Of a DNA stretch of 64,000 nucleotides, positions 10,653 through 26,831 are shown piece by piece; position 1 is the first letter of the stretch; each line of letters starts with the position of its first letter. The DNA lies in assembly GCF_006715395.1 (NCBI RefSeq), contig NZ_VFNC01000003.1, forward strand, positions 992,001-1,056,000. The letters are read 5' to 3'. A program made the position numbers and the translations under genes. The notes under the pieces were generated by a model. The model saw only the letters and a program-made list of their open reading frames with translations. It searched no databases and was not told the origin of the DNA. The DNA is from Streptomyces sp. SLBN-31. Its GTDB lineage: Bacteria > Actinomycetota > Actinomycetes > Streptomycetales > Streptomycetaceae.

Positions 10653-12602
10653 TCAGGCCCCCGCCGGCTCCCACCGCCGCCGCCCGAGCAACACCGCCAG
10701 CCCCACCCGCGTCGCCGCCATCACCACCCGATCCGACTTCCGCAGCACATACGCCTCGTCCAGATCCCACACCAGCCCCGCCCCCGCGACGCCCCGACCA
10801 CCATCCTCGTACGCCTCCTCCGCGGCCGGCTCCTGCCGACCGCCCGCCGACACCCCCCGCTCCAACGCCAGCACCCGCCACGACCCCGCCCGGAACGCCT
10901 GCGCGACCGTCTTCCCCTCCAGTTGCGGATGCCCGTCCACATCCACCGCGGCGAAGAGCAGCACCCGCCGCTCCACGGGGATCGCCCCCAGGATCTGCCG
11001 CCCCATCATCGCCCCGGCGAAAGCGGGAGCGGCCAGATGGGACACGCTCCGGCTCCGGGTGGACGCCCGCGGATGGGCGGCCCGCAGCGTCCGGTACACG
11101 GCGGTCGCGAAGTCGTCGTCGTACAGCCGCAGCACCACCCGTAGATCGGGCCGCACGGAGCGGGCGTACAGCGCGGCTTCCAGGTTGGTCGTGTCCGCGC
11201 TGGTCACCGCGAGCAGCGCCTCCGCCCGGTGGATCTTGGCGGCCTCCAGGACGCCCTCCTGGGTGACGTCGCCGAGGACGACGGGCACCCGCAGCCGCCG
11301 GGCCGTGGCCAGGCCCCGAGCGTCGGGGTCGGACTCGACGCACACCACCGGGATCTGCAGTTCCCGCAGCCGGGTCAGCACCCGTGTGCCGATCTTGCCC
11401 AGCCCGAGGAGGACGACATGCCCGCTCAGCCCGCGGGGCGGCTTGCGCAGCGCGGAGGCCGTGCGAAAGGTGCCCAGCGCCTCCAGGACCGCCGCCAGCA
11501 GCACCGGCAGCAGCAGCAACCCCACCAGTCCGGACAGGAGTTGGAGGATCTGGCGGCCGATGGGCTGTCCGATGGCGGGGTCGTCGATGGCGAAGAGGTC
11601 GAGCAGGGTCAGGTAGAAGGCCCGCAGCGGGTGCATCCGGGTCACCGCCGACAGGGCGATGGCGAGCGCGATCACGCACGCCGCCATGCCCGCCAGCGAC
11701 CACCGCAGCCGCCGCGAGAACAGCGACGCGAACGGCACGGCACCGCGGGCCGGCGGCAGCGCGGGCCCGGAGTACGACACCTGCTCCAGCACCACCGTCC
11801 CGCGCCCGGTCGCACCCCGCACCGCCGCCGCGTCGGGCAGCAGCAGCGGCTCCTGGTCGGCGCCGAGTCCGACGCCGTCGCCCCCGGCCGGGTCGTTGCT
11901 GGAGAGCACCGCCAGCGTGGCCAGACCCGGCGCCGGGAGCTGACCGGGGCGCGGCGTGCGCTCCACCGCGCGCAGCAGCAGCCCGTCGGTCTGCACGACC
12001 TTGCTGGTGCCGGCGACGGCGGTGGCGGCCAGCGCCGGCGCGGCCGTGTCGGCGTCGGACAGCACGGTGGTGGAGACGTCGAAGCCGGTGGCGTCGGAGC
12101 CGCCCGCGGCCAACGCGGAGGCCTGGTCCAGGAGTTCCTCGATGTGCTGGCCGAGCCGCCGGTTGTACAGGCGCAGCACGAGCCGCAGCCGGGGGTTGAG
12201 GCGGCGGGCGGTGAGGGCGGCGCGGATGTTGGTCTCGTCGTCGTCGTACACGAGGGCGAGCGCGGCGGCCCGTTCCACGCCGGCGTCGGCGAGCACGGTC
12301 TCGGTGGCCTCGGTGGCCTCGAGGACCTGCTGGGCGCCGACGGGTTCGGCGATGCCCGCCCCGCCCGCCCGGCCGACGGCCGCGGTCACCCGGTCGAGCA
12401 GTGCCGTCGTCGTCGCGCGGGCCCGGCCCACCACCGGCAGCCGGACACCGCGCTCGGAGGGCGGGACGACGAGGGTGACCTGTTCGCCGTAGACACCGCG
12501 CAGTTCGGCGGCCAGCCGGTGGGCCAGTCCGTCGTCACCGCAGACCACCATGTGCGCGGACCCGCCACCGGCGGGCTGACCTTGATTCGGAACGCTCGCC
12601 AC
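10653..12602 (-). CDS. Ion-channel-like protein with two TrkA-N/RCK NAD-binding domains
   Basis: 649 residues. Seen: an N-terminal Rossmann-like TrkA-N domain (MVVCGDDGLAHRLAAELRG, about 18-36, then a stretch to about 190), a central membrane part with helices at about 300-322 (LRWSLAGMAACVIALAIALSAV) and 345-395 and a pore-loop-like stretch LDLFAIDD, then a second TrkA-N domain (HVVLLGLGKIGTRVLTRLREL, about 392-412). This resembles CASTOR/POLLUX-type or Kch-like cation channels gated by cytosolic nucleotide-binding domains. The ion is not known; the filter TVGYG is absent. GTG 12602 has no clear ribosome site. It is divergent from the permease gene. Confidence 0.82.
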   Translation of the reverse strand: MASVPNQGQPAGGGSAHMVVCGDDGLAHRLAAELRGVYGEQVTLVVPPSERGVRLPVVGRARATTTALLDRVTAAVGRAGGAGIAEPVGAQQVLEATEATETVLADAGVERAAALALVYDDDETNIRAALTARRLNPRLRLVLRLYNRRLGQHIEELLDQASALAAGGSDATGFDVSTTVLSDADTAAPALAATAVAGTSKVVQTDGLLLRAVERTPRPGQLPAPGLATLAVLSSNDPAGGDGVGLGADQEPLLLPDAAAVRGATGRGTVVLEQVSYSGPALPPARGAVPFASLFSRRLRWSLAGMAACVIALAIALSAVTRMHPLRAFYLTLLDLFAIDDPAIGQPIGRQILQLLSGLVGLLLLPVLLAAVLEALGTFRTASALRKPPRGLSGHVVLLGLGKIGTRVLTRLRELQIPVVCVESDPDARGLATARRLRVPVVLGDVTQEGVLEAAKIHRAEALLAVTSADTTNLEAALYARSVRPDLRVVLRLYDDDFATAVYRTLRAAHPRASTRSRSVSHLAAPAFAGAMMGRQILGAIPVERRVLLFAAVDVDGHPQLEGKTVAQAFRAGSWRVLALERGVSAGGRQEPAAEEAYEDGGRGVAGAGLVWDLDEAYVLRKSDRVVMAATRVGLAVLLGRRRWEPAGA

Positions 12603-17659: not shown

Positions 17660-18718
17660 TCAGAGCGCCTTCGCCGGCCAGTCCAGCAGCCGCGCCCCGA
17701 TGACGGCCGTCTGCAGCGTGTACCGGTGGCCGGGATCGCACGGATCGGCCCCGGTCAGCTGGTGGATCCGCGCCAGCCGGTACGTCAGCGCCCGCACGCT
17801 CAACGCCAGCCGCCGCGCGGCCTCCGCGGCGATGCACCCGCACTCGAAGTACACGCTCAGCGTCTCCAGCAGCGGCTCCGCACCGCCGCGCGCCGCGGTC
17901 AGCGGACCCAGCGCGTCCCGCACCAGGTCGGCCATGGCCTGCCGGTCCCGGGTGAGGACGGGATACACCAGCAGGTCGGCGGCGCGCAGTACGGGCCCCT
18001 CCAGCCCGAGCCGCTCGGCCAGTTCGAGGGTGTTGACGGCCTCCTCGTAGGACTGGACGACCCCGCCGGGACCCTGCTGCGGCCGGCCGATGGCGACGCG
18101 GCAGCCGTCCGTGGCGGCGTACGCGTGCTTGGCGAAGTGGGCGAGCACCTCGTCCTGGTCACCGGGCGCGACGCACAGCAGCCGCCCGTCCTTGGTGGTG
18201 AGCAGGATGTTGCGCTCGCCGAAGCGGGCGATGAGGGCGTGCTCCACCCGGCGGGGGACCGGCGCGCCCTCGTCGTAGGCCGTCGGGCCCTGCGCGACCG
18301 CGACGGCGTGGGCGTGCGAGAGGCGCAGGCCGAAGCGTTCGGCGCGTTCGGCGAGGCGCCCGAGGTCGCTGCGGCCGTAGAGGAGGTCGTCGATGAACTC
18401 CCGGCGCGCGGCCTCCTCCCGGCGCACGGCGACCAGTTGGGCGTGCTCGTAGCCCTCGGCGAAGGCGTCGACGACCTGCGTCATGGCGGCGAGCGTGCTG
18501 TCGGCGGAGCCGGGCGTGGCCGGCCAGGCGGCCCGGGTGGCGGTGAGGTGGGCCACGATCAGGGCGCGCAGCCCGTGACCGGCCTCCGCGGCCTGCTCGC
18601 CCAGCGCGCGCCGGGCCGCTATCTCGTCGCGGGTCAGCCGCCGGCCGGTCGCCGACACGTCCGCCAGCAGTTGGGCATACCCGTCCAGATACTGGCCGGG
18701 CGTCTCACGCTCCGCCAC
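17660..18718 (-). CDS. PucR-family transcriptional regulator
   Basis: 352 residues. Seen: N-terminal helical region (DEIAARRALGEQAAEAGHGLRALIVAHL), a GGDEF-related middle (about 165-280, VAIGRPQQGPGGVVQSYEEAVNTLELAERLG), and a C-terminal PucR helix-turn-helix (LLETLSVYFECGCIAAEAARRLALSVRALTYRLARI in parts, about 295-335). PucR proteins are usually local activators or repressors of catabolic or stress genes. GTG 18718 is chosen over a far upstream ATG because GGGGGA sits just before it and the upstream extension overlaps a palindromic control region. It ends immediately beside glyS (convergent) and diverges from the flotillin set. Confidence 0.88.
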   Translation of the reverse strand: MAERETPGQYLDGYAQLLADVSATGRRLTRDEIAARRALGEQAAEAGHGLRALIVAHLTATRAAWPATPGSADSTLAAMTQVVDAFAEGYEHAQLVAVRREEAARREFIDDLLYGRSDLGRLAERAERFGLRLSHAHAVAVAQGPTAYDEGAPVPRRVEHALIARFGERNILLTTKDGRLLCVAPGDQDEVLAHFAKHAYAATDGCRVAIGRPQQGPGGVVQSYEEAVNTLELAERLGLEGPVLRAADLLVYPVLTRDRQAMADLVRDALGPLTAARGGAEPLLETLSVYFECGCIAAEAARRLALSVRALTYRLARIHQLTGADPCDPGHRYTLQTAVIGARLLDWPAKAL

Positions 18719-18791
18719 CCCGTCCCCCGTTTCCTGACGCGCCGGTGACGGTTCCTTGACGCGGCTCCGGCATCGAAACCCTAGTGAACAC

Positions 18792-18806
18792 TGCCGGAAA
18801 CCGGCA
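18792..18806. promoter_or_regulatory. Palindromic operator-like box 1
   Basis: TGCCGGAAACCGGCA, a perfect inverted repeat with a 3-base centre, in the 203-bp divergent region between the PucR gene and the YqiJ-like gene. The same 15-mer occurs on the other strand at 18868-18882. A half-site-like TCCGGCATCG stands at about 18766-18775. Confidence 0.65.
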
Positions 18807-18860
18807 ATGCGCGGGCGTGCGCAGGGCGCGCACCATGGGCCGCGGGGAGCACCACGGTCG

Positions 18861-18889
18861 GTCCCGATGCCGGTTTCCGGCATCGGGAC
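18861..18889. promoter_or_regulatory. Palindromic operator-like box 2 (13-bp arms)
   Basis: Arms 18861-18873 (GTCCCGATGCCGG) and 18877-18889 (its exact reverse complement) flank TTT. The inner 15 bases are the reverse complement of box 1, 76 bp away. The stem is strong enough to act as RNA hairpin too, but the repeated core favours a protein-binding site; the PucR protein encoded next door is the first candidate. Confidence 0.65.
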
Positions 18890-18921
18890 CCAGGGAGACG
18901 AGGAAACGGGGGTCGGGGACC

Positions 18922-19539
18922 ATGGGGGCGTTTCTCGCGGCCGCCGCGGGGTTTCCCACCATCCTGTTCAGCTCGGCTCTCGTCGTGGTCGTCGTCTTCT
19001 GGCTGCTGACCGCCGTCGGCGCGGCCGACCACCACGGCTTCCACGGGCACCAGCACTTCGAGGCGTGGGGGATGGGCGGGGTGCCGGTGACGGTCGCGTT
19101 CTCCCTGCTCACCGCGGTCGCCTGGTTCGTCAGCCTCAGTACGACGGTGTTGCTGGACCCGTTGATGCCGTTCGGGCTCGCCCGGGCCGCGTTCCGGGTC
19201 GCGGTCCTGGCGGTCGCGCTGCTGGTCGCCTGGCGGACGACCCGGCTGCTCGTGCGTCCCCTGCGTCACCTCCTCCCGGACGCCCCCGGCCCCTCCCGGT
19301 ACGACTTCGTCGGTCTGACCTGCACCATCCGCACCGGCCGGGTGGACGGCGGCTTCGGACAGGCCGAGGTCAGGCCGGCCGACGGCTCCAGCGCGCTGGT
19401 CCAGGTGCGCCAGTCGGGCGACGACGCCCTGCGCAGCGGCAGCACCGGACTTCTGTACGCGTACGACGAGACCGGCGAGTTCTTCTGGGTCGCGCCCTAC
19501 GACAGCGCGCTCGACCCCCGGCGTCACCCTTCCGTCTGA
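18922..19539 (+). CDS. YqiJ/NfeD-like membrane protein with OB-fold domain
   Basis: 205 residues. Seen: three membrane helices (about 10-33, 53-75, 85-105), a His-rich loop after the first (HHGFHGHQH), and a C-terminal small beta domain (about 122-200: FVGLTCTIRTGRVDGGFGQAEVR...LVQVRQSG), the OB-fold typical of NfeD/YqiJ. Such proteins nearly always pair with flotillins and are thought to anchor or tune them. The ATG at 18922 follows GGGGA. It is 42 bp upstream of the flotillin gene and is presumably co-transcribed, under the palindromic boxes. Confidence 0.82.
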   Translation: MGAFLAAAAGFPTILFSSALVVVVVFWLLTAVGAADHHGFHGHQHFEAWGMGGVPVTVAFSLLTAVAWFVSLSTTVLLDPLMPFGLARAAFRVAVLAVALLVAWRTTRLLVRPLRHLLPDAPGPSRYDFVGLTCTIRTGRVDGGFGQAEVRPADGSSALVQVRQSGDDALRSGSTGLLYAYDETGEFFWVAPYDSALDPRRHPSV

Positions 19540-19581
19540 CTTCGGCTCACCCACCCACTTCATCCTTCGAGGACTCATGTC

Positions 19582-21714
19582 ATGAACGCCATCACCGTGG
19601 GCGTCGGCGTGCTCGTCGCCGTCGTGCTGCTCATCGCGCTCACCCTGCTGCTGGTGGTCGGCCGGCTGTTCCGCAAGGTGGAGCAGGGCCGGGCGCTGAT
19701 CATCTCCAAGACGAAGAAGGTCGACGTCACCTTCACCGGGGCCGTCGTCCTGCCGGTGCTGCACAAGGCCGAGTACATGGACATCTCGGTGAAGACCATC
19801 GAGATCCGCCGTACCGGCCGCGAGGGGCTGATCTGCCGGGACAACATCCGCGCCGACATTCACATCAGCTTCTTCGTACGGGTCAACAAGACCGTCGAGG
19901 ACGTCATCAAGGTCGCCCAGGCCATCGGCACGCACACCGCCAGCGACCCGGCGGCGATCCAGGACTTCTTCGCCGCGAAGTTCTCCGAGGCCCTCAAGAC
20001 CGTCGGCAAGCAGCTGGACTTCGTCGACCTCTACACCAAGCGCGAGGAGTTCCGGGACCGGATCATCCAGGTCATCGGCACCGACCTCAACGGCTACCAC
20101 CTCGACGACGCGGCCATCGACTTCCTCGAGCAGACCCCGATGACCCAGCTGGACGCGGCGAACATCCTCGACGCCCAGGGCATCCGGAAGATCACCGAGC
20201 TGACCACCGTCGAGCACGTGCGCACGAACGAGTACGAGCGCACCGAGCAGAAGGAGATCACCCGGCAGAACGTCGAGGCCCGGGAGACCATCCTGGAGCT
20301 CGAGCGCCGCCAGGCCGAGGCGGAGATCAGGCAGCGGCGCGAGGTGGAGACCCTGCGCGCCAAGGAGGAGGCCGTCACCGCGAAGGTGCAGGAGGAGGAA
20401 CGGCTCGGCGCCCAGACCGCCTTCCTGCGCACCGAGGAACAGCTCGGCGTCCAGCGCGAGAACCAGGCCCGCGAGATCGCGGTGGCGCAGAAGAACCGCG
20501 AGCGGGTCATCGCCGTGGAGAACGAGCGCATCGAGAAGGACCGCCTGCTGGAGGTCATCGCACGGGAACGGGAGACCGCCCTGTCGGGGATCGCCAAGGA
20601 CAAGGAGGTCGAGGCCGAGCGCCGGACGGTCGCGGACGTGATCCGGGAGCGGATCGCCGTCGACCGCACGGTCGCCGAGCAGGAGGAGGCCATCAAGAAG
20701 CTGCGCGTCGTCGAGGAGGCCGAGCGCGAACGCCAGTCGGTGATCATCGCCGCGGAGGCCGAAGCGCAGGAGAAGCTGGTCAAGGACATCAAGGCCGCCG
20801 AGGCGGCCGAGTCCGCGGCCAGGCACCGGGCGGCCGAACAGCTCACCCTCGCCGAGGCGCGGCTGAAGTCCGCCGACCTCGACGCGCGGGCCAAGCTGCG
20901 GCTCGCGGAAGGCGTGCAGGCGGAGGAGGCGGCCGCGGGACTGGCCGCCGTGCAGGTCCGCGACAAGGAGGCCGAGGTCACCGAGAAGGCCGGCCGCGCG
21001 GAGGCCGTGGCCACGGAGGCCCGGCTGCGGGCGGAGGCGGAGGGCACGCGGGCGAGGACGCTCGCGGAGGCCGAGGGCGCCGAGGCGCGGCTGCGGGCCG
21101 AGGCCGAGGGCACGCGGGCCAAGGCGCTCGCGGAGGCCACCGGCATCGGCGAGAAGCTCAAGGCCGAGGCCGAGGGCCTGAGCCAGAAGGCGGTCGCGAT
21201 GGCCGCCCTGGACGACGCCTCCCGCGGGCACGAGGAGTACCGGCTGCGGCTGGCCGCGGAGAAGGAGATCCGCCTGGCCGGCCTCGACATGCAGCGGCAG
21301 GTCGCCGAGGCGCAGGCAACGGTCCTGGCGACCGGCCTGGAGAACGCCGACATCGACATCGTCGGCGGCGAGTCCGTCTTCTTCGACCGGCTGATGTCGG
21401 CGATCTCGCTGGGCAAGGGCGTCGACGGCTTCGTCCAGAACTCGGACACCGCGCAGGCGCTGGCGAAGCCCTGGCTCGACGGCACGGCGAGCTTCACCGA
21501 GGACGTGAGCCGCGTGCTGGGCTCGGTCTCCACCGCCGACGTACAGAACCTCACCGTCTCGGCGCTGCTGCTGAAGCTGATGAACACGGGCGGCGCGGAT
21601 TCGGTCGCGCTGCGCCAACTCCTCGACAGGGCGGGCGAACTGGGCGTCGCGGACACGCCCTTGGCGTCCGTGAACGGCACCGCCCCCAAGGGGCGCGGGG
21701 AACTGCGCGACTAG
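19582..21714 (+). CDS. Flotillin-family protein (YqiK-like)
   Basis: 710 residues. Seen: one N-terminal membrane helix (about 5-27), an SPFH/PHB domain (about 30-195: GRALIISKTKKVDVTFTGAVVLP, IEIRRTGREGLICRDNI), then about 370 residues of heptad-rich, Glu/Ala/Arg coiled coil (about 215-585) with repeated EAEGTRA units, and a globular C-terminal tail. Flotillins oligomerise into membrane microdomains and affect secretion, envelope stress and fluidity. GAGGA just upstream supports ATG 19582. The paired YqiJ-like gene and the giant ATPase downstream (123-bp gap) suggest one membrane-associated machine. Confidence 0.93.
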   Translation: MNAITVGVGVLVAVVLLIALTLLLVVGRLFRKVEQGRALIISKTKKVDVTFTGAVVLPVLHKAEYMDISVKTIEIRRTGREGLICRDNIRADIHISFFVRVNKTVEDVIKVAQAIGTHTASDPAAIQDFFAAKFSEALKTVGKQLDFVDLYTKREEFRDRIIQVIGTDLNGYHLDDAAIDFLEQTPMTQLDAANILDAQGIRKITELTTVEHVRTNEYERTEQKEITRQNVEARETILELERRQAEAEIRQRREVETLRAKEEAVTAKVQEEERLGAQTAFLRTEEQLGVQRENQAREIAVAQKNRERVIAVENERIEKDRLLEVIARERETALSGIAKDKEVEAERRTVADVIRERIAVDRTVAEQEEAIKKLRVVEEAERERQSVIIAAEAEAQEKLVKDIKAAEAAESAARHRAAEQLTLAEARLKSADLDARAKLRLAEGVQAEEAAAGLAAVQVRDKEAEVTEKAGRAEAVATEARLRAEAEGTRARTLAEAEGAEARLRAEAEGTRAKALAEATGIGEKLKAEAEGLSQKAVAMAALDDASRGHEEYRLRLAAEKEIRLAGLDMQRQVAEAQATVLATGLENADIDIVGGESVFFDRLMSAISLGKGVDGFVQNSDTAQALAKPWLDGTASFTEDVSRVLGSVSTADVQNLTVSALLLKLMNTGGADSVALRQLLDRAGELGVADTPLASVNGTAPKGRGELRD

Positions 21715-21837
21715 CCACGACGGCGCCGCAGACGACCCACCGCGCCACCCCCTGAACCGTTCCGGAGCCGCCGCACGAGGGGACGGCGGCTCCGGAACAG
21801 TGATGCACCGATCTGTTGAGCATGTGGAGAGGCAACC

Positions 21838-24800
21838 ATGACCACCGGCCCGGACACCCCGCGTGAGGGCTCGTACGAGGCCCACGGCGACGGCGCCTAC
21901 GAGGTGCTGCGCGACCGCCTCACCGCCCAGGCCGCCGAACTCGCCCGCCGCGCCGAACTCCTCAACGCCCGACGCGTCGAGGAGTTCGGCTCCACCGGGC
22001 TGGAGCTCACCGGCAGCGGAAGCCTGCGCACCCCACACAACCGCGTCCCCCGCGACCTGGTCGCCGTCGGCGACGCGCTGCTCCTCGGCAGCACCGCGGC
22101 ACCGGTCCCGGGACGCCCGCCCACAGGCAGCACCGCAGCACCGGTCCCGGGACGCCCGCCCACAGGCAGCACCGCGCCCTCCGACCCGGGACGCCCGCCC
22201 ACGGTCGCCGACGTCCTCACCCTCCACGACCGCGACCTGAACCCCCTGCCCGAGGACGCGGTCCCCGGTCTCCTCGACGATCCTGCCTTCGTCCGCGAGT
22301 TCGCCGAACTCCACCGCTACTTCCGCGACGCCCGCCTCCTCCAACTCCGCCGCCTGGACGACAGGTTGCTGGCCGTCTTCCAGACGGGCGAGCTGACCGA
22401 CGACATCCGTGTGCTGCGCTGGAGCGTGGCGACCGACGGACGGATCTCCTTCCTCGACGCGCGCGGCGAACGCGACCACGTCTTCCCGCCGGCCCACGAC
22501 TTCACCTGGACCCGGACCACCCGCGACGACCACGTCCTCGGCCGCCACCCCCATGTCTGCGTCGACGGCGAGGTGTTCGTCACCACGGTCGGCGGCGCCC
22601 TCACCGTCAGGACCGACGACGACACCGAGACCGCCGACGGCATCCACAGCGAACCGGTCGCCGAACCGCTGCAGTCCCTCGCCGACGCGGAGATCGCGTA
22701 CGCGCGCGTGGGCCCGCTGATCCTCCTGGACGTCCTGCCCTACAAGGAGGAGACCCACCGCCACCTGGTCTTCAACACCCTCACCAGGACCGTCGTCCGC
22801 CTCGACGGCATCGGCCGGTCCTGCCGCCGCCTCCCCGAGGACCAGGGCATCGTCTTCCCCGGCGGGTACTGCCTGGCCACGGGGGCGTACAAGACCTTCG
22901 ACGGCGTCGACACCGACGGCCTAGAACTCGAGCGGACGGTGCGCTCACCGAACGGTGAGGACGTCCTGTTCGCCTACCACGCGCGCGCCACCGGCCGCAG
23001 CCTCCTGCTGTCGTACAACCTGGTCCGCAAGCAGGTCGCCACCCCGCTGACCTGCGACGGCTGGGCCCTGTTCGAGGACGGCGCGCTGACCGTGCTGCGC
23101 CCGCACACCGGCGAGCCCGCCCGCGTCCACCCCGTGCAGCGGTGGACCTCGCCCTACGTCTGCGACACCCACGCGGCCACCCGCCCCGCCGGCACCGGCC
23201 CGCTCGCCCGCGTCGGCAACGCCGACCTCGTCCGGGGCATCTCCGACTGCCTCTCCGTCACCGCGACCGCGGCCGGCACGACGCCGACGACCGAGGTGTA
23301 CGAGGCCCTGGCCGCCGCCTGTGTCCGGGTCACGGACACCCACCACTGGCTCGGCGACCCCGAACTGGGCGACCTGCGCACCCCGTTGGACGCCCTCCAC
23401 GCCACCGCCGAGCAGGTGCTGACCGAGTTCGAGACGGTCCGAACCCTCACCCGCCAGGCGTCCGACGCCATCGAGCAGGCGTCCGAGGACACCACCGCTC
23501 TCGTACGGCGCCTGCGCGGCGAGCCACCGCGCGACGCCGCCTCCTGGATCGACGGCCTCACCGAACTGCGCCGCGCCCAGGGCCGGTTGCTGACGCTGAA
23601 GGACCTCCGGTACGCGGACACCGCCCGCGTCGACGCCCTCGCGGCGGAGGCCGAGACGGACCTGGCGTCGTTCGGCCAGCGGGCGGTGGCGGCGCTGGCC
23701 CGCGAGGACGCCTTCGCCGGCCACCACCGGGACATCGCGGCCCTGGTGGCCGAGGCCGGCGCGCTCGCCACGGCCGCCGAGGCGGCACCGCTGACCGCCC
23801 GGCTGGACGAACTGGCCGAGCGGCTGCGGACGGTCACCGAGGTGGTGGCCGGCCTCGACATCGCCGACGCCACGGTCCGTACGTCCGTCCTGGAGCGGGT
23901 GGCCGAGGTGCTGGGCGGGACCAACCGGGCCCGAGCCGTCCTGGAGGCCCGCCGCCGCGCACTGCGGGACCGGGAGGGCCGCGCCCAGTTCGCCGCCGAA
24001 CTGGCCCTGCTCGCCCAGTCGATCACCGGTGCCCTGGCCGCCGCAACCGACCCGCAGGCCTGCGACACCCAACTGTCACTGCTGCTGGTCCGGTTGGAGA
24101 ACCTGGAGGCCCGCTTCACCGACCACGACGACTTCCTCACCGAACTCGCGGACAAACGCACCGAGATCCACGAGACCTTCGCCGCCCGCAAACAGACCCT
24201 CGCCGACGACCGCGCCCGCCGCGCCGAACAGCTCACCGCCTCCGCCGAACGCCTCCTGGAGACGGTGAACCGCCGGGCGACCGCCCTCCCCGACGCCGAG
24301 GCCATCGGGGCGTACTTCGCCTCCGACCCGATGGTCGCCAAGGTCCGCCGCACCGCCGACGACCTGCGCGCCCTCGGCGACCGGGCGCGCGCGGACGAAC
24401 TGGCGGGCCGCCTCACCGCCGCCCACCAGGAGGCCGGCCGCGCCCTGCGCGACCGCGCCGACCTGTACGCCGACGACGGCCGCACTCTGCGCCTGGGCCG
24501 CCACCGGTTCGCCGTCAACACCGAACCCCTCGACCTCGCGCTGGTCCCGCACGGCCCCGACGGCCTGGCCTTCGCCCTCACCGGCACGGACTACCGCTCC
24601 CCGGTGACCGACCCCGGCTTCGCCGCCACCCGCCCCTACTGGAACCGCCCCCTGCCCTCGGAGTCCCCCGAGGTCTACCGCGCCGAGCACCTCGCCGCCC
24701 GCCTGCTCGCCGAACACGGCCCGACCGCCCTCGCCGGGACCGACCTGGCCGCCCTTGTCCGCCGCACGGCACAGGAGTCGTACGACGAAGGCCACGAACG

Positions 24801-26682
24801 CGGCATACACGACCACGACGCGACGGCGATCCTCACCTCGCTCCTCCAACTGCACACGGAGGCGGGCCTGTTGCGCCACCTGCCCACCGCCCGGGCGGCA
24901 GCCCACCTGTTCTGGACGCACGACACCACCCCCGAGGCCCGTGACACGTGGACGAGACGCGCACGCTCACTCGCCCGCGCGAGGGAGACGTTCGGACCGG
25001 CCCCGGCGATCGCGGACTTCTGCTCGGAGCTGGGTGCGGCGGTGGGTGACGCGGAGGCGGCGGCGTACCTCTTCGAAGAACTCACCACAGGCCCCGACGG
25101 GTTCGTGATGAGCGCCGGCGCCCGCGAGTTCCTCGACAAGTTCCGCCGCACGGTCGGCACTTCGGCCTACGACGAGGACCTGACCGCCCTCGACGACCTG
25201 CCCGCCCGCCGCCAGCTGGTCGAGGCCTGGCTGTCGGCGTACGCCAGGACGAGCGGGTACGCCGACCTGCCCTCCGCCGACCTGGCCGAGGCGATCGCGG
25301 CGGAACTCTGCCCCGCCCTGCCGCGCTACGAGTCGGACGCCCCGCTGACGGCGACCGTGGACGGCCTGCTGGGCACCCACCCCCGCATCACCGCGACCGG
25401 CACCCTGACCCTCCGTATCGACGAATTCATGTCCCGCACAACGAAGTTCAGGACGACGGAGGTCCCGGCCCACCGCGACTACCTGCGCCGGCGGACCGCC
25501 CTGCTGACCGCGGAACGCACCCGCATCCGCGTCGACGACCACCGCCCGCGCGTGATGACGACCTTCGTCCGCAACCGCCTGATCGACGAGGTCTACCTCC
25601 CCCTCCTGGGCGACAGCCTGGCCAAACAGCTGGGCACGACGGCCGGCCCCGGCACGGGCGGCCTCCTGCTACTGGTCTCCCCGCCCGGGTACGGCAAGAC
25701 GACGCTCATGGAGTACGTGGCGGAGCGCCTCGGCCTGGTCCTGGTGAAGGTGAACGGTCCGGCACTCGGCCATCGCGTCACCTCCCTCGACCCGGCCGAG
25801 GCGCCGAACGCCACGGCCCGCCAGGAGGTCGAGAAGATCAACTTCGCCCTCGCGGCCGGCAACAACACCCTGCTCCACGTGGACGACATCCAGCACACGT
25901 CCCCCGAACTCCTCCAGAAGTTCGTGCCGTTGTGCGACAGCACGCGCCGCGTCGAGGGAGTGTGGGACGGCGAGCCGCGCACCTACGACCTGCGCGGCAA
26001 ACGCTTCGCCGTCTGCCTGGCCGGCAACCCCTACACCGAGTCCGGCACCCGCTTCCACGTCCCCGACATGCTGGCCAACCGCGCCGACGTGTGGAACCTC
26101 GGAGACGTGGTGACCGGCAAGGAAGCGGTCTTCGAGCTGAGCTTCATAGAAAACGCCCTGACGTCGAACCCGACCCTCACCGCCCTGGCGGGTCGCCCCC
26201 GAACCGACCTGGACCTCCTCCTCCGCCTGGCGTCACAGGACCCGACGGCCCACCCGTCCCACCTCACCCACCCCTGCGCCCCGGCCGAACTGGACCAGAT
26301 CCTGACGGTCCTCCGCCACCTCCTCACGGCCCGCGAGACGGTCCTGGCCGTCAACCGCGCCTACATGGCCTCGGCGGCCCAGTCACCCGCAACCCGCACC
26401 GAGCCCCCCTTCCAACTCCAGGGCTCCTACCGCAACCTGAACAAGATCGCCCAACGCGTCCACCCGACGATGAACACCGCTGAACTGACCGCGGTGATAA
26501 CCGACCACTACCGCACCGAGGCCCAAACCCTCCCGACAGCCACAGAGGCCAACCTCCTGAAACTCGCGGAACTCCAGGGCGCACAGACCCCGCAGCAGTC
26601 GTCCAGGTGGACGGCCTTGAAACAGCAACACACACGCGCCACCCAGGTCTCCCCGCGACCCTCTCCGACATCCTCCGCCTAG
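21838..26682 (+). CDS. Giant AAA ATPase of the 'DNA repair ATPase' (DUF3686) type
   Basis: 1614 residues. Seen in order: an N-terminal helical segment (VLRDRLTAQAAELARRAEL); three 13-residue repeats (84-122); a long beta-rich region (about 135-500, many DGR/RDG turns); coiled-coil helices (about 520-870); a further linker; and a C-terminal AAA domain with Walker A PPGYGKTT (about 1282-1289) and Walker B LLHVDDIQ (about 1345-1352), followed by a sensor-like CLAGNPY. The family is annotated as DNA-repair ATPase but has no proven role. It follows the flotillin gene by 123 bp; the context suggests a membrane-linked remodelling ATPase, which is an inference. Confidence 0.85.
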   Translation: MTTGPDTPREGSYEAHGDGAYEVLRDRLTAQAAELARRAELLNARRVEEFGSTGLELTGSGSLRTPHNRVPRDLVAVGDALLLGSTAAPVPGRPPTGSTAAPVPGRPPTGSTAPSDPGRPPTVADVLTLHDRDLNPLPEDAVPGLLDDPAFVREFAELHRYFRDARLLQLRRLDDRLLAVFQTGELTDDIRVLRWSVATDGRISFLDARGERDHVFPPAHDFTWTRTTRDDHVLGRHPHVCVDGEVFVTTVGGALTVRTDDDTETADGIHSEPVAEPLQSLADAEIAYARVGPLILLDVLPYKEETHRHLVFNTLTRTVVRLDGIGRSCRRLPEDQGIVFPGGYCLATGAYKTFDGVDTDGLELERTVRSPNGEDVLFAYHARATGRSLLLSYNLVRKQVATPLTCDGWALFEDGALTVLRPHTGEPARVHPVQRWTSPYVCDTHAATRPAGTGPLARVGNADLVRGISDCLSVTATAAGTTPTTEVYEALAAACVRVTDTHHWLGDPELGDLRTPLDALHATAEQVLTEFETVRTLTRQASDAIEQASEDTTALVRRLRGEPPRDAASWIDGLTELRRAQGRLLTLKDLRYADTARVDALAAEAETDLASFGQRAVAALAREDAFAGHHRDIAALVAEAGALATAAEAAPLTARLDELAERLRTVTEVVAGLDIADATVRTSVLERVAEVLGGTNRARAVLEARRRALRDREGRAQFAAELALLAQSITGALAAATDPQACDTQLSLLLVRLENLEARFTDHDDFLTELADKRTEIHETFAARKQTLADDRARRAEQLTASAERLLETVNRRATALPDAEAIGAYFASDPMVAKVRRTADDLRALGDRARADELAGRLTAAHQEAGRALRDRADLYADDGRTLRLGRHRFAVNTEPLDLALVPHGPDGLAFALTGTDYRSPVTDPGFAATRPYWNRPLPSESPEVYRAEHLAARLLAEHGPTALAGTDLAALVRRTAQESYDEGHERGIHDHDATAILTSLLQLHTEAGLLRHLPTARAAAHLFWTHDTTPEARDTWTRRARSLARARETFGPAPAIADFCSELGAAVGDAEAAAYLFEELTTGPDGFVMSAGAREFLDKFRRTVGTSAYDEDLTALDDLPARRQLVEAWLSAYARTSGYADLPSADLAEAIAAELCPALPRYESDAPLTATVDGLLGTHPRITATGTLTLRIDEFMSRTTKFRTTEVPAHRDYLRRRTALLTAERTRIRVDDHRPRVMTTFVRNRLIDEVYLPLLGDSLAKQLGTTAGPGTGGLLLLVSPPGYGKTTLMEYVAERLGLVLVKVNGPALGHRVTSLDPAEAPNATARQEVEKINFALAAGNNTLLHVDDIQHTSPELLQKFVPLCDSTRRVEGVWDGEPRTYDLRGKRFAVCLAGNPYTESGTRFHVPDMLANRADVWNLGDVVTGKEAVFELSFIENALTSNPTLTALAGRPRTDLDLLLRLASQDPTAHPSHLTHPCAPAELDQILTVLRHLLTARETVLAVNRAYMASAAQSPATRTEPPFQLQGSYRNLNKIAQRVHPTMNTAELTAVITDHYRTEAQTLPTATEANLLKLAELQGAQTPQQSSRWTALKQQHTRATQVSPRPSPTSSA
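22087..22203 (+). repeat. Three tandem 39-bp units inside the giant ATPase gene
   Basis: Units at 22087-22125, 22126-22164 and 22165-22203 encode GSTAAPVPGRPPT twice and GSTAPSDPGRPPT once. Units 1 and 2 differ by a single base, which implies recent duplication; the third is more diverged. Frame is kept, so the repeat number could vary between strains without breaking the protein. Confidence 0.9.
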
Positions 26683-26703: not shown

Positions 26704-26831
26704 CACTCCTTTCCTGACCAGGAATCAGACATTCCGGGATCGGGAATGCGCTTCACGGGAACGTGCCGTTCGAATCGGCCCTCCTGATCGACAGGCTGAC
26801 CCGACCAGTCGGCCGTGATCAAGGGGGATTC

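Follow-up and report, generated by a model that had tools for sequence, protein, structure and literature searches.

The window analysed here, a stretch of 64,000 nucleotides from Streptomyces sp. SLBN-31 (contig NZ_VFNC01000003.1, positions 992,001 to 1,056,000), carries consecutively on the + strand the genes for a YqiJ-like membrane protein, a flotillin and an ATPase of 1614 residues. It represents, in Streptomyces, a flotillin-AAA+ module that is widespread among bacteria. Gene order, near-obligate pairing of flotillin and ATPase and the predicted domain architecture were established computationally, and so was a shared operator which stands at fixed places before several operons and tracks pucR, the gene for a PucR-type regulator divergent from the trio. 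The grouping of the three proteins is already published. Ravi et al. 2024 (PMC11237479) described an operon composed of a Band-7/flotillin, a YqiJ/YuaF protein and an AAA+ protein with coiled coil and beta-propeller. These are the same three proteins, and the architecture of that ATPase agrees with the models predicted here. The novelty appears to lie in the control of the trio, namely in a PucR-linked operator and a regulon shared with FloT and cation/proton antiporters. The main text of Ravi et al. never mentions 'Streptomyces', 'PucR' or 'antiporter'. Neither the operator nor the shared FloT-antiporter regulon was found in the literature searched by term and partly from listings, and no mention of DUF3686, the Pfam family of the ATPase, alone or with flotillin, was found in the literature searched. 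As a whole we favour, with modest confidence, an ATP-driven flotillin module for membrane repair or chaperone function that is deployed on ion or membrane-potential stress.

The loci used for comparison were gathered by the ATPase alone. They numbered 150: 61 from Streptomyces (of the 63 trio loci outside the window; G341 and G354 were left out), one from another family of the phylum, eight of the twelve matches in a plasmid collection, and 80 from the genome_contigs set, the latter being the best 80 of 507 confirmed relatives and nearest to a Pseudomonas ATPase. Four loci with less than 1.5 kb of upstream sequence were excluded, leaving 146 (76 of them from genome_contigs). A flotillin gene was located upstream on the same strand in all 146, and in 142, including one locus (L013) with an ATPase split into two frames, it was adjacent, i.e. 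its frame ended no more than 700 bases from the open start of the ATPase frame. In L093, L096, L156 and L157 flotillin and ATPase are about 2 to 6.3 kb apart. The flotillin probe matched 62 of 121 Streptomyces genomes, and these are the same 62 that hold an ATPase above the cut-off. At the level of the phylum the ATPase family is scarcer (8/246 evenly drawn genomes), and none of 14 control genomes gave a match to its Pfam model PF12458. The original prediction, made from the letters of the window, had combined the three proteins into one membrane machine and proposed a neighbourhood search for the ATPase family next to SPFH proteins. Because of these counts the family cannot be called a rare companion of flotillins; flotillin and ATPase are, with hardly any doubt, an inseparable pair. 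The third member is less regular. A YqiJ-like gene was present in 49/61 Streptomyces loci, the single actinomycete locus of another family, 8/8 plasmid-collection loci and 74/76 genome_contigs loci, and it was not found in 12/61 Streptomyces loci even when these were searched with a profile. The core of the module is therefore flotillin plus ATPase; that part of the proposed three-gene grouping holds, whereas the YqiJ-like protein is not an obligatory member. Two genomes (G128 and G182) carry two copies of the trio each (L013, L015, L016 and L017) with signs of decay: the split ATPase of L013, fragmented flotillins in L016 and L017, and, in G128, one copy of pucR interrupted by stop codons.

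Beyond Streptomyces the trio may be accompanied by PspA, which was detected in 37/76 genome_contigs and 2/8 plasmid-collection loci. On pQBR103 a set composed of YjfI, PspA, rhomboid, DUF2491, DUF350, DUF1190 and glutathionylspermidine synthase genes is followed by the trio, and in a Hymenobacter locus the trio is preceded by a Tir-type protein and PspA. This matches the pattern described in PMC11237479 and could mean that PspA, the ESCRT-III homologue of bacteria, has in the ATPase a partner of the Vps4 kind, so that the PspA polymer would be the substrate and flotillin and the YqiJ-like protein would only recruit the ATPase to the membrane. The form in the window corresponds to the 'abbreviated operon' of Ravi et al., which is devoid of the CesT/Tir-PspA genes, and these authors suggest that abbreviated operons work with PspA encoded elsewhere (PMC11237479). 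However, PspA was not found in any of the 61 Streptomyces trio loci, nor among the immediate neighbours scanned in the window, and 39/76 genome_contigs loci lacked PspA while flotillin was present in 76/76. We regard PspA as an unlikely substrate.

The YqiJ-like protein (205 amino acids; 18922..19539, +) consists of N-terminal hydrophobic segments and a C-terminal domain. It had no Pfam match and was identified by its position, its hydrophobic segments and its homologues in other phyla, which occupy the same place in the loci and one of which is annotated as DUF1449. An OB-fold membrane protein had been predicted. The hydrophobic N-terminal part is indeed present, but the OB fold was not confirmed by Pfam, by a PDB sequence profile or by hhalign (probability 12%), and among 11 relatives a single one showed a weak NfeD match. 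Hydrophobic segments and position thus agree with the YqiJ/YuaF type with three transmembrane segments; OB fold and Pfam family could not be confirmed. The flotillin (710 amino acids; 19582..21714, +) possesses a single N-terminal hydrophobic helix (residues 8-26) and an SPFH domain (residues 32-174). The full-length protein gave no Pfam match, and the SPFH part scanned alone matched Band_7 (PF01145, E 2.1e-10). Residues 201-575 are rich in A, E and R and contain no proline, which by composition and absence of proline agrees with the coiled coil of about 370 residues foreseen in the original prediction. Membrane helix, Band_7 domain and a C-terminal coiled coil (the latter by composition) make up the pattern of the SPFH superfamily. 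No match at E <= 0.01 was obtained when the flotillin sequence was compared with the PDB.

The regulator gene pucR (17660..18718, -) encodes 352 amino acids with GGDEF_2 and a C-terminal HTH_30 domain (Pfam), the architecture of the PucR/CdaR type. The region ascribed to the trio had been given as beginning at 18718, which is the GTG start codon of pucR; the trio proper begins at 18922 and ends, as predicted, at 26682, and the gaps of 42 and 123 bp between its genes are correct according to the open reading frame coordinates. A longer alternative pucR frame from 18883 would span the operators. These are two copies of the perfect dyad TGCCGG-N3-CCGGCA between pucR and the YqiJ-like gene, both in the form TGCCGG-WWW-CCGGCA. 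Dyad 1 (TGCCGGAAACCGGCA, 18792..18806) lies about 74 bp before the pucR start. Dyad 2 (TGCCGGTTTCCGGCA, 18868..18882), 76 bp from dyad 1 and about 40 bp before the start of the YqiJ-like gene, is the core of a perfect palindrome of 31 nucleotides (18860-18890). Genome-wide there are four exact sites of the WWW form: the two before the trio, one upstream of an antiporter gene and one by a glyoxalase/AraC pair. With any spacer there are 16 exact sites, 12 of them intragenic, and the four read as intergenic are the same four. Extended frames cover all 16 sites; the four were counted as intergenic because the coding part, judged by homology or by the likely start, begins only downstream of them.

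How exceptional the dyad is was judged from permutations of the same bases in the half-site (60 half-sites, motif included). The 61 Streptomyces trio loci, 1.12 Mb in sum, contain 70 copies of the dyad, compared with a mean of 2.4 over the 60 half-sites and 12 for the next best. Within a fixed stretch of 1.16 kb before the trio it is exact in 35/61 loci and present with at most one mismatch in 53/61 (other permutations: mean 0.17 and 2.4, best 2 and 16). The spacing of paired dyads is 33 bp in 11 pairs and 75-77 bp in 10 pairs. The dyad is not a general feature of the trio, an idea which we rejected: it is exact in 0/72 loci of other phyla (three at one mismatch or fewer) and in 1/10 further actinomycete loci, that of Streptomyces apocyni (two at one mismatch or fewer). 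A promoter scan revealed no sigma-70-like site, and the single terminator-like site scored under the shuffled mean.

The operator is shared by other operons. For the antiporter and FloT the single best-matching locus of each of 30 genomes was considered. The antiporter gene by the dyad in the window's own genome belongs to the Na+/H+ exchanger family PF00999; its best NCBIfam models, below their cut-offs, are potassium/proton antiporters. Close orthologues exist in 30 of 121 Streptomyces genomes, and their upstream regions contain the dyad in exact form in 15/30 and within one mismatch in 24/30, at -154 to -179 (mean over the 60 permutations, motif included, 0.27 and 0.57, next best 1 and 2). 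In the window's genome a FloT orthologue with 90% identity is encoded 4.4 kb from the antiporter; it is preceded by a small protein without Pfam match that we take as NfeD-like by place and size. Before NfeD-FloT the dyad is exact in 20/30 and within one mismatch in 25/30 loci (other permutations: mean 0.02 and 0.25). For pucR itself 21 trio-bearing loci from the 30 best and 20 chosen trio-less genomes were used: exact dyads precede the gene in 15/21 and 14/20 (other permutations: mean 0.05 and 0, best 2 and 0), and dyads with one mismatch at most in 17/21 and 16/20. In 12 of the 20 trio-less loci pucR adjoins NfeD-FloT, the genes of a CPA2-type antiporter and a TrkA_C protein, or a TrkA_N gene, and in 11 trio loci, by our own reading of the neighbours, a TrkA_N gene follows the ATPase. 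We conclude with little reservation that the dyad-marked genes form one operator regulon.

Some related observations concern the TrkA_N genes. In the trio-less loci L243, L253 and L254 pucR and a dyad stand before a YqiJ-like gene, with a TrkA_N gene next in L253 and L254, an arrangement that would result if intervening flotillin and ATPase genes had been deleted. The window itself encodes a TrkA_N-type protein of 649 amino acids (10653-12602, -) about 5 kb from pucR, with 67% identity over the match to the TrkA_N protein adjoining pucR in a trio-less genome; no operator with one mismatch or fewer was seen directly upstream of this gene.

The ATPase (21838..26682, +) has no hydrophobic membrane segment. 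In Pfam it matches DUF3686 (PF12458, E 3e-179), DUF7902 and, from residue 1277, AAA. Structures predicted for its two halves show a beta-propeller (residues 55-438, the PF12458 region; 22000..23151), a part with long helices including DUF7902 (residues 461-876, DUF7902 at 624-707; 23218..24465) and an AAA+ domain (residues 1238-1582; 25549..26583), an architecture that joins AAA+ to a coiled coil and, at the N-terminal end, a beta-propeller. Both Walker A (SPPGYGKTT, residues 1281-1289; 25678..25704) and the Asp-Asp of Walker B (residues 1349-1350; 25882..25887) are invariant in 64 aligned sequences, and the Walker A lysine is residue 1287 of 1614, so that the giant AAA ATPase with a P-loop near the C-terminus was correctly recognised. 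Within the propeller region there are three in-frame copies of a 39-bp repeat (22087-22203), the first two differing by one base and the third more; the corresponding residues are gapped in alignments of homologues and have low model confidence.

In a comparison with VIA-align the nearest fold of the AAA+ module is that of MoxR-type CbbQ/NorQ. MoxR-type AAA+ rings, those of NorQ and RavA among them, are reported to remodel partner complexes; for CbbQ this role is taken from the title of its structure. The ATPase differs from these proteins in that the module is part of a protein of 1614 residues with propeller and helical part, and in having a flotillin instead of a VWA gene among the neighbours scanned. 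The likeness may be taken to mean that flotillin is a passive platform and that the task of the ATPase is to mature or activate some membrane complex, for instance a respiratory enzyme or a transporter, in the way that NorQ, CbbQ and RavA serve their own complexes. Candidate clients would be the co-regulated antiporter and the TrkA_N proteins adjoining the trio in several genomes. Yet no other gene was as regular beside the ATPase as flotillin in a search of the neighbours with 18 query proteins, and a passive platform seems distinctly unlikely to us.

The original prediction had a dedicated PucR regulator. This does not hold, because the shared operator also precedes pucR, NfeD-FloT and the antiporter; PucR orthologues (E below about 1e-90) moreover occur in 27 of 59 trio-less genomes, against 61 of 62 genomes with the trio (7e-12 in a Fisher test not corrected for phylogeny). 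PucR very likely is the protein that binds the dyad, and, to judge from the sequences, probably runs a regulon of flotillins plus cation transport. It might be argued that a different regulator binds the dyads and that PucR is a mere neighbour and target, since the dyad is also found where PucR is not adjacent and since one genome (G267) has a dyad at its antiporter gene and no close PucR reported. On the other hand, exact dyads precede pucR itself in 29/41 loci, they lie beside pucR also where its neighbours are other genes, and the sole trio genome without PucR (G351, locus L030) has no dyad within one mismatch. A different binding protein is thus quite improbable.

How might the module work? 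A single N-terminal helix would anchor flotillin in the cell membrane on the inner face, and flotillin would assemble through its coiled coil, with the YqiJ-like protein as its usual membrane partner. The soluble ATPase may dock onto this assembly via propeller and helical part, and its MoxR-like AAA+ ring could open the assembly, or release or remodel membrane proteins held there. Such a cytoplasmic placement is consistent with the prediction that YqiK faces the cytoplasm (PMC10434171) and with an ATPase devoid of membrane segments. By analogy, a flotillin-bound ATPase of the MoxR type would most simply be an engine which opens the assembly or moves its clients, and the earlier proposal that it remodels or loads flotillin rafts is plausible; that its target is the flotillin assembly, or clients of that assembly, we give a little better than an even chance. 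The PucR-type protein would bind the TGCCGG-N3-CCGGCA dyads and control itself, the trio, the NfeD-FloT operon and the cation/proton antiporter. If it does, the module would serve the cell under disturbed ion balance or membrane potential. Ion or membrane-potential stress is somewhat more probable than not as the inducing condition, because both the PspA neighbourhood seen in other bacteria and the antiporters of Streptomyces point there.

A number of observations weigh against this interpretation. In addition to the Fisher tests being uncorrected for phylogeny, the operator of NfeD-FloT in the window's own genome is imperfect, with one mismatch, and beside pucR none of the flotillin and transporter queries matched in 8 of the 20 trio-less loci. 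The fourth intergenic dyad (L168, C1:4064187), next to genes for a glyoxalase-like protein and a regulator of the AraC type, is off the theme of flotillins and ion transport. In G267 an exact dyad stands at the antiporter gene with no close PucR reported among the 17 of 39 candidates scored. Some permuted controls with one mismatch reach 16/61 before the trio and, in one permutation, 9/21 before pucR. Eight of the 61 trio loci had no dyad with one mismatch or fewer in the fixed stretch; among these L044, L045 and L055 have exact pairs further upstream and L072 a site with one mismatch. As regards the ATPase, Walker B has Asp in all 64 aligned sequences at its second acidic position, where Glu is usual. 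MoxR proteins typically have a VWA-domain partner, and no VWA gene was seen among the neighbouring proteins scanned with Pfam. Finally, Foldseek puts RuvB chains first for the AAA+ model (E 3.5e-06; TM-score over target 0.36); RuvB is outside the 50 VIA-align rows listed, an absence which alone shows nothing.

The patchy spread of the trio (62 of 121 Streptomyces genomes, and plasmid-collection records) would also suit an anti-phage defence module, but the four proteins had no PADLOC match at E <= 0.001 and the co-regulated genes are flotillins and ion transporters, so that phage defence was set aside as most improbable. The nearest proteins to the ATPase are from Streptomyces, and many among the 120 matches listed are named 'DNA repair ATPase', a label that the original prediction had rightly called unproven: apart from these names and the Foldseek ranking, which favours RuvB, a RuvB-like repair function could draw on weak matches to RuvB found with Pfam, with NCBIfam and among PDB sequences, but these are confined to the P-loop region and the AAA+ fold is nearest CbbQ/NorQ in VIA-align. 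This function appears very improbable.

Several known systems resemble the trio in part. To our knowledge there is no such ATPase in the YqiJ-YqiK and YuaF-YuaG operons. Escherichia coli YqiJ-YqiK and Bacillus subtilis YuaF-YuaG/FloT each combine an SPFH2 protein with an NfeD-type partner, and as in the window flotillin and membrane partner share an operon (PMC2636767). In Staphylococcus aureus FloA-NfeD, likewise a flotillin with an NfeD partner, unfolded membrane proteins are held independently of ATP (PMC11222466). Such holding is a candidate function here too, the difference being that an ATPase has been added. In a further system, SPFH assembly and AAA+ enzyme are joined as in the trio: HflKC-FtsH is an SPFH cage paired with an AAA+ protease. 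HflKC differs in being predicted to be exposed to the periplasm (PMC10434171), and the ATPase of the trio has no protease domain by Pfam and another nearest AAA+ fold. A bolder proposal, which we put forward tentatively and think doubtful in its full form, is that a flotillin cage in the cytoplasm has the DUF3686 ATPase as its energy-driven half, the pair being a protease-less, ATP-fuelled counterpart of HflKC-FtsH. The ATPase would dock by propeller and coiled coil and force the cage open or empty it, and a PucR-type sensor of ion or membrane-potential stress would deploy it with NfeD-FloT and cation/proton antiporters as one regulon. Downstream of the trio, between the ATPase gene and an Amidase_6 gene, an inverted repeat unlike the dyads (CATTCC-N7-GGAATG, 26730-26748) was noticed by eye.

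The function of bacterial flotillins is a long-standing question, and a giant ATPase beside flotillin in every examined locus raises the question of what this ATPase pulls on. In Streptomyces the operator provides a testable signal: the regulator, the DNA site and the ion transporters under shared control point to stress of ion balance or membrane potential. One regulator apparently switches the trio, a second raft protein and ion pumps, and this ties the machine to salt, acid or voltage stress. If the explanation favoured here is true, the name 'DNA repair ATPase' carried by many of the listed relatives would be called into question; if the cage proposal is true, membrane-domain repair and ion pumping would form one regulon.

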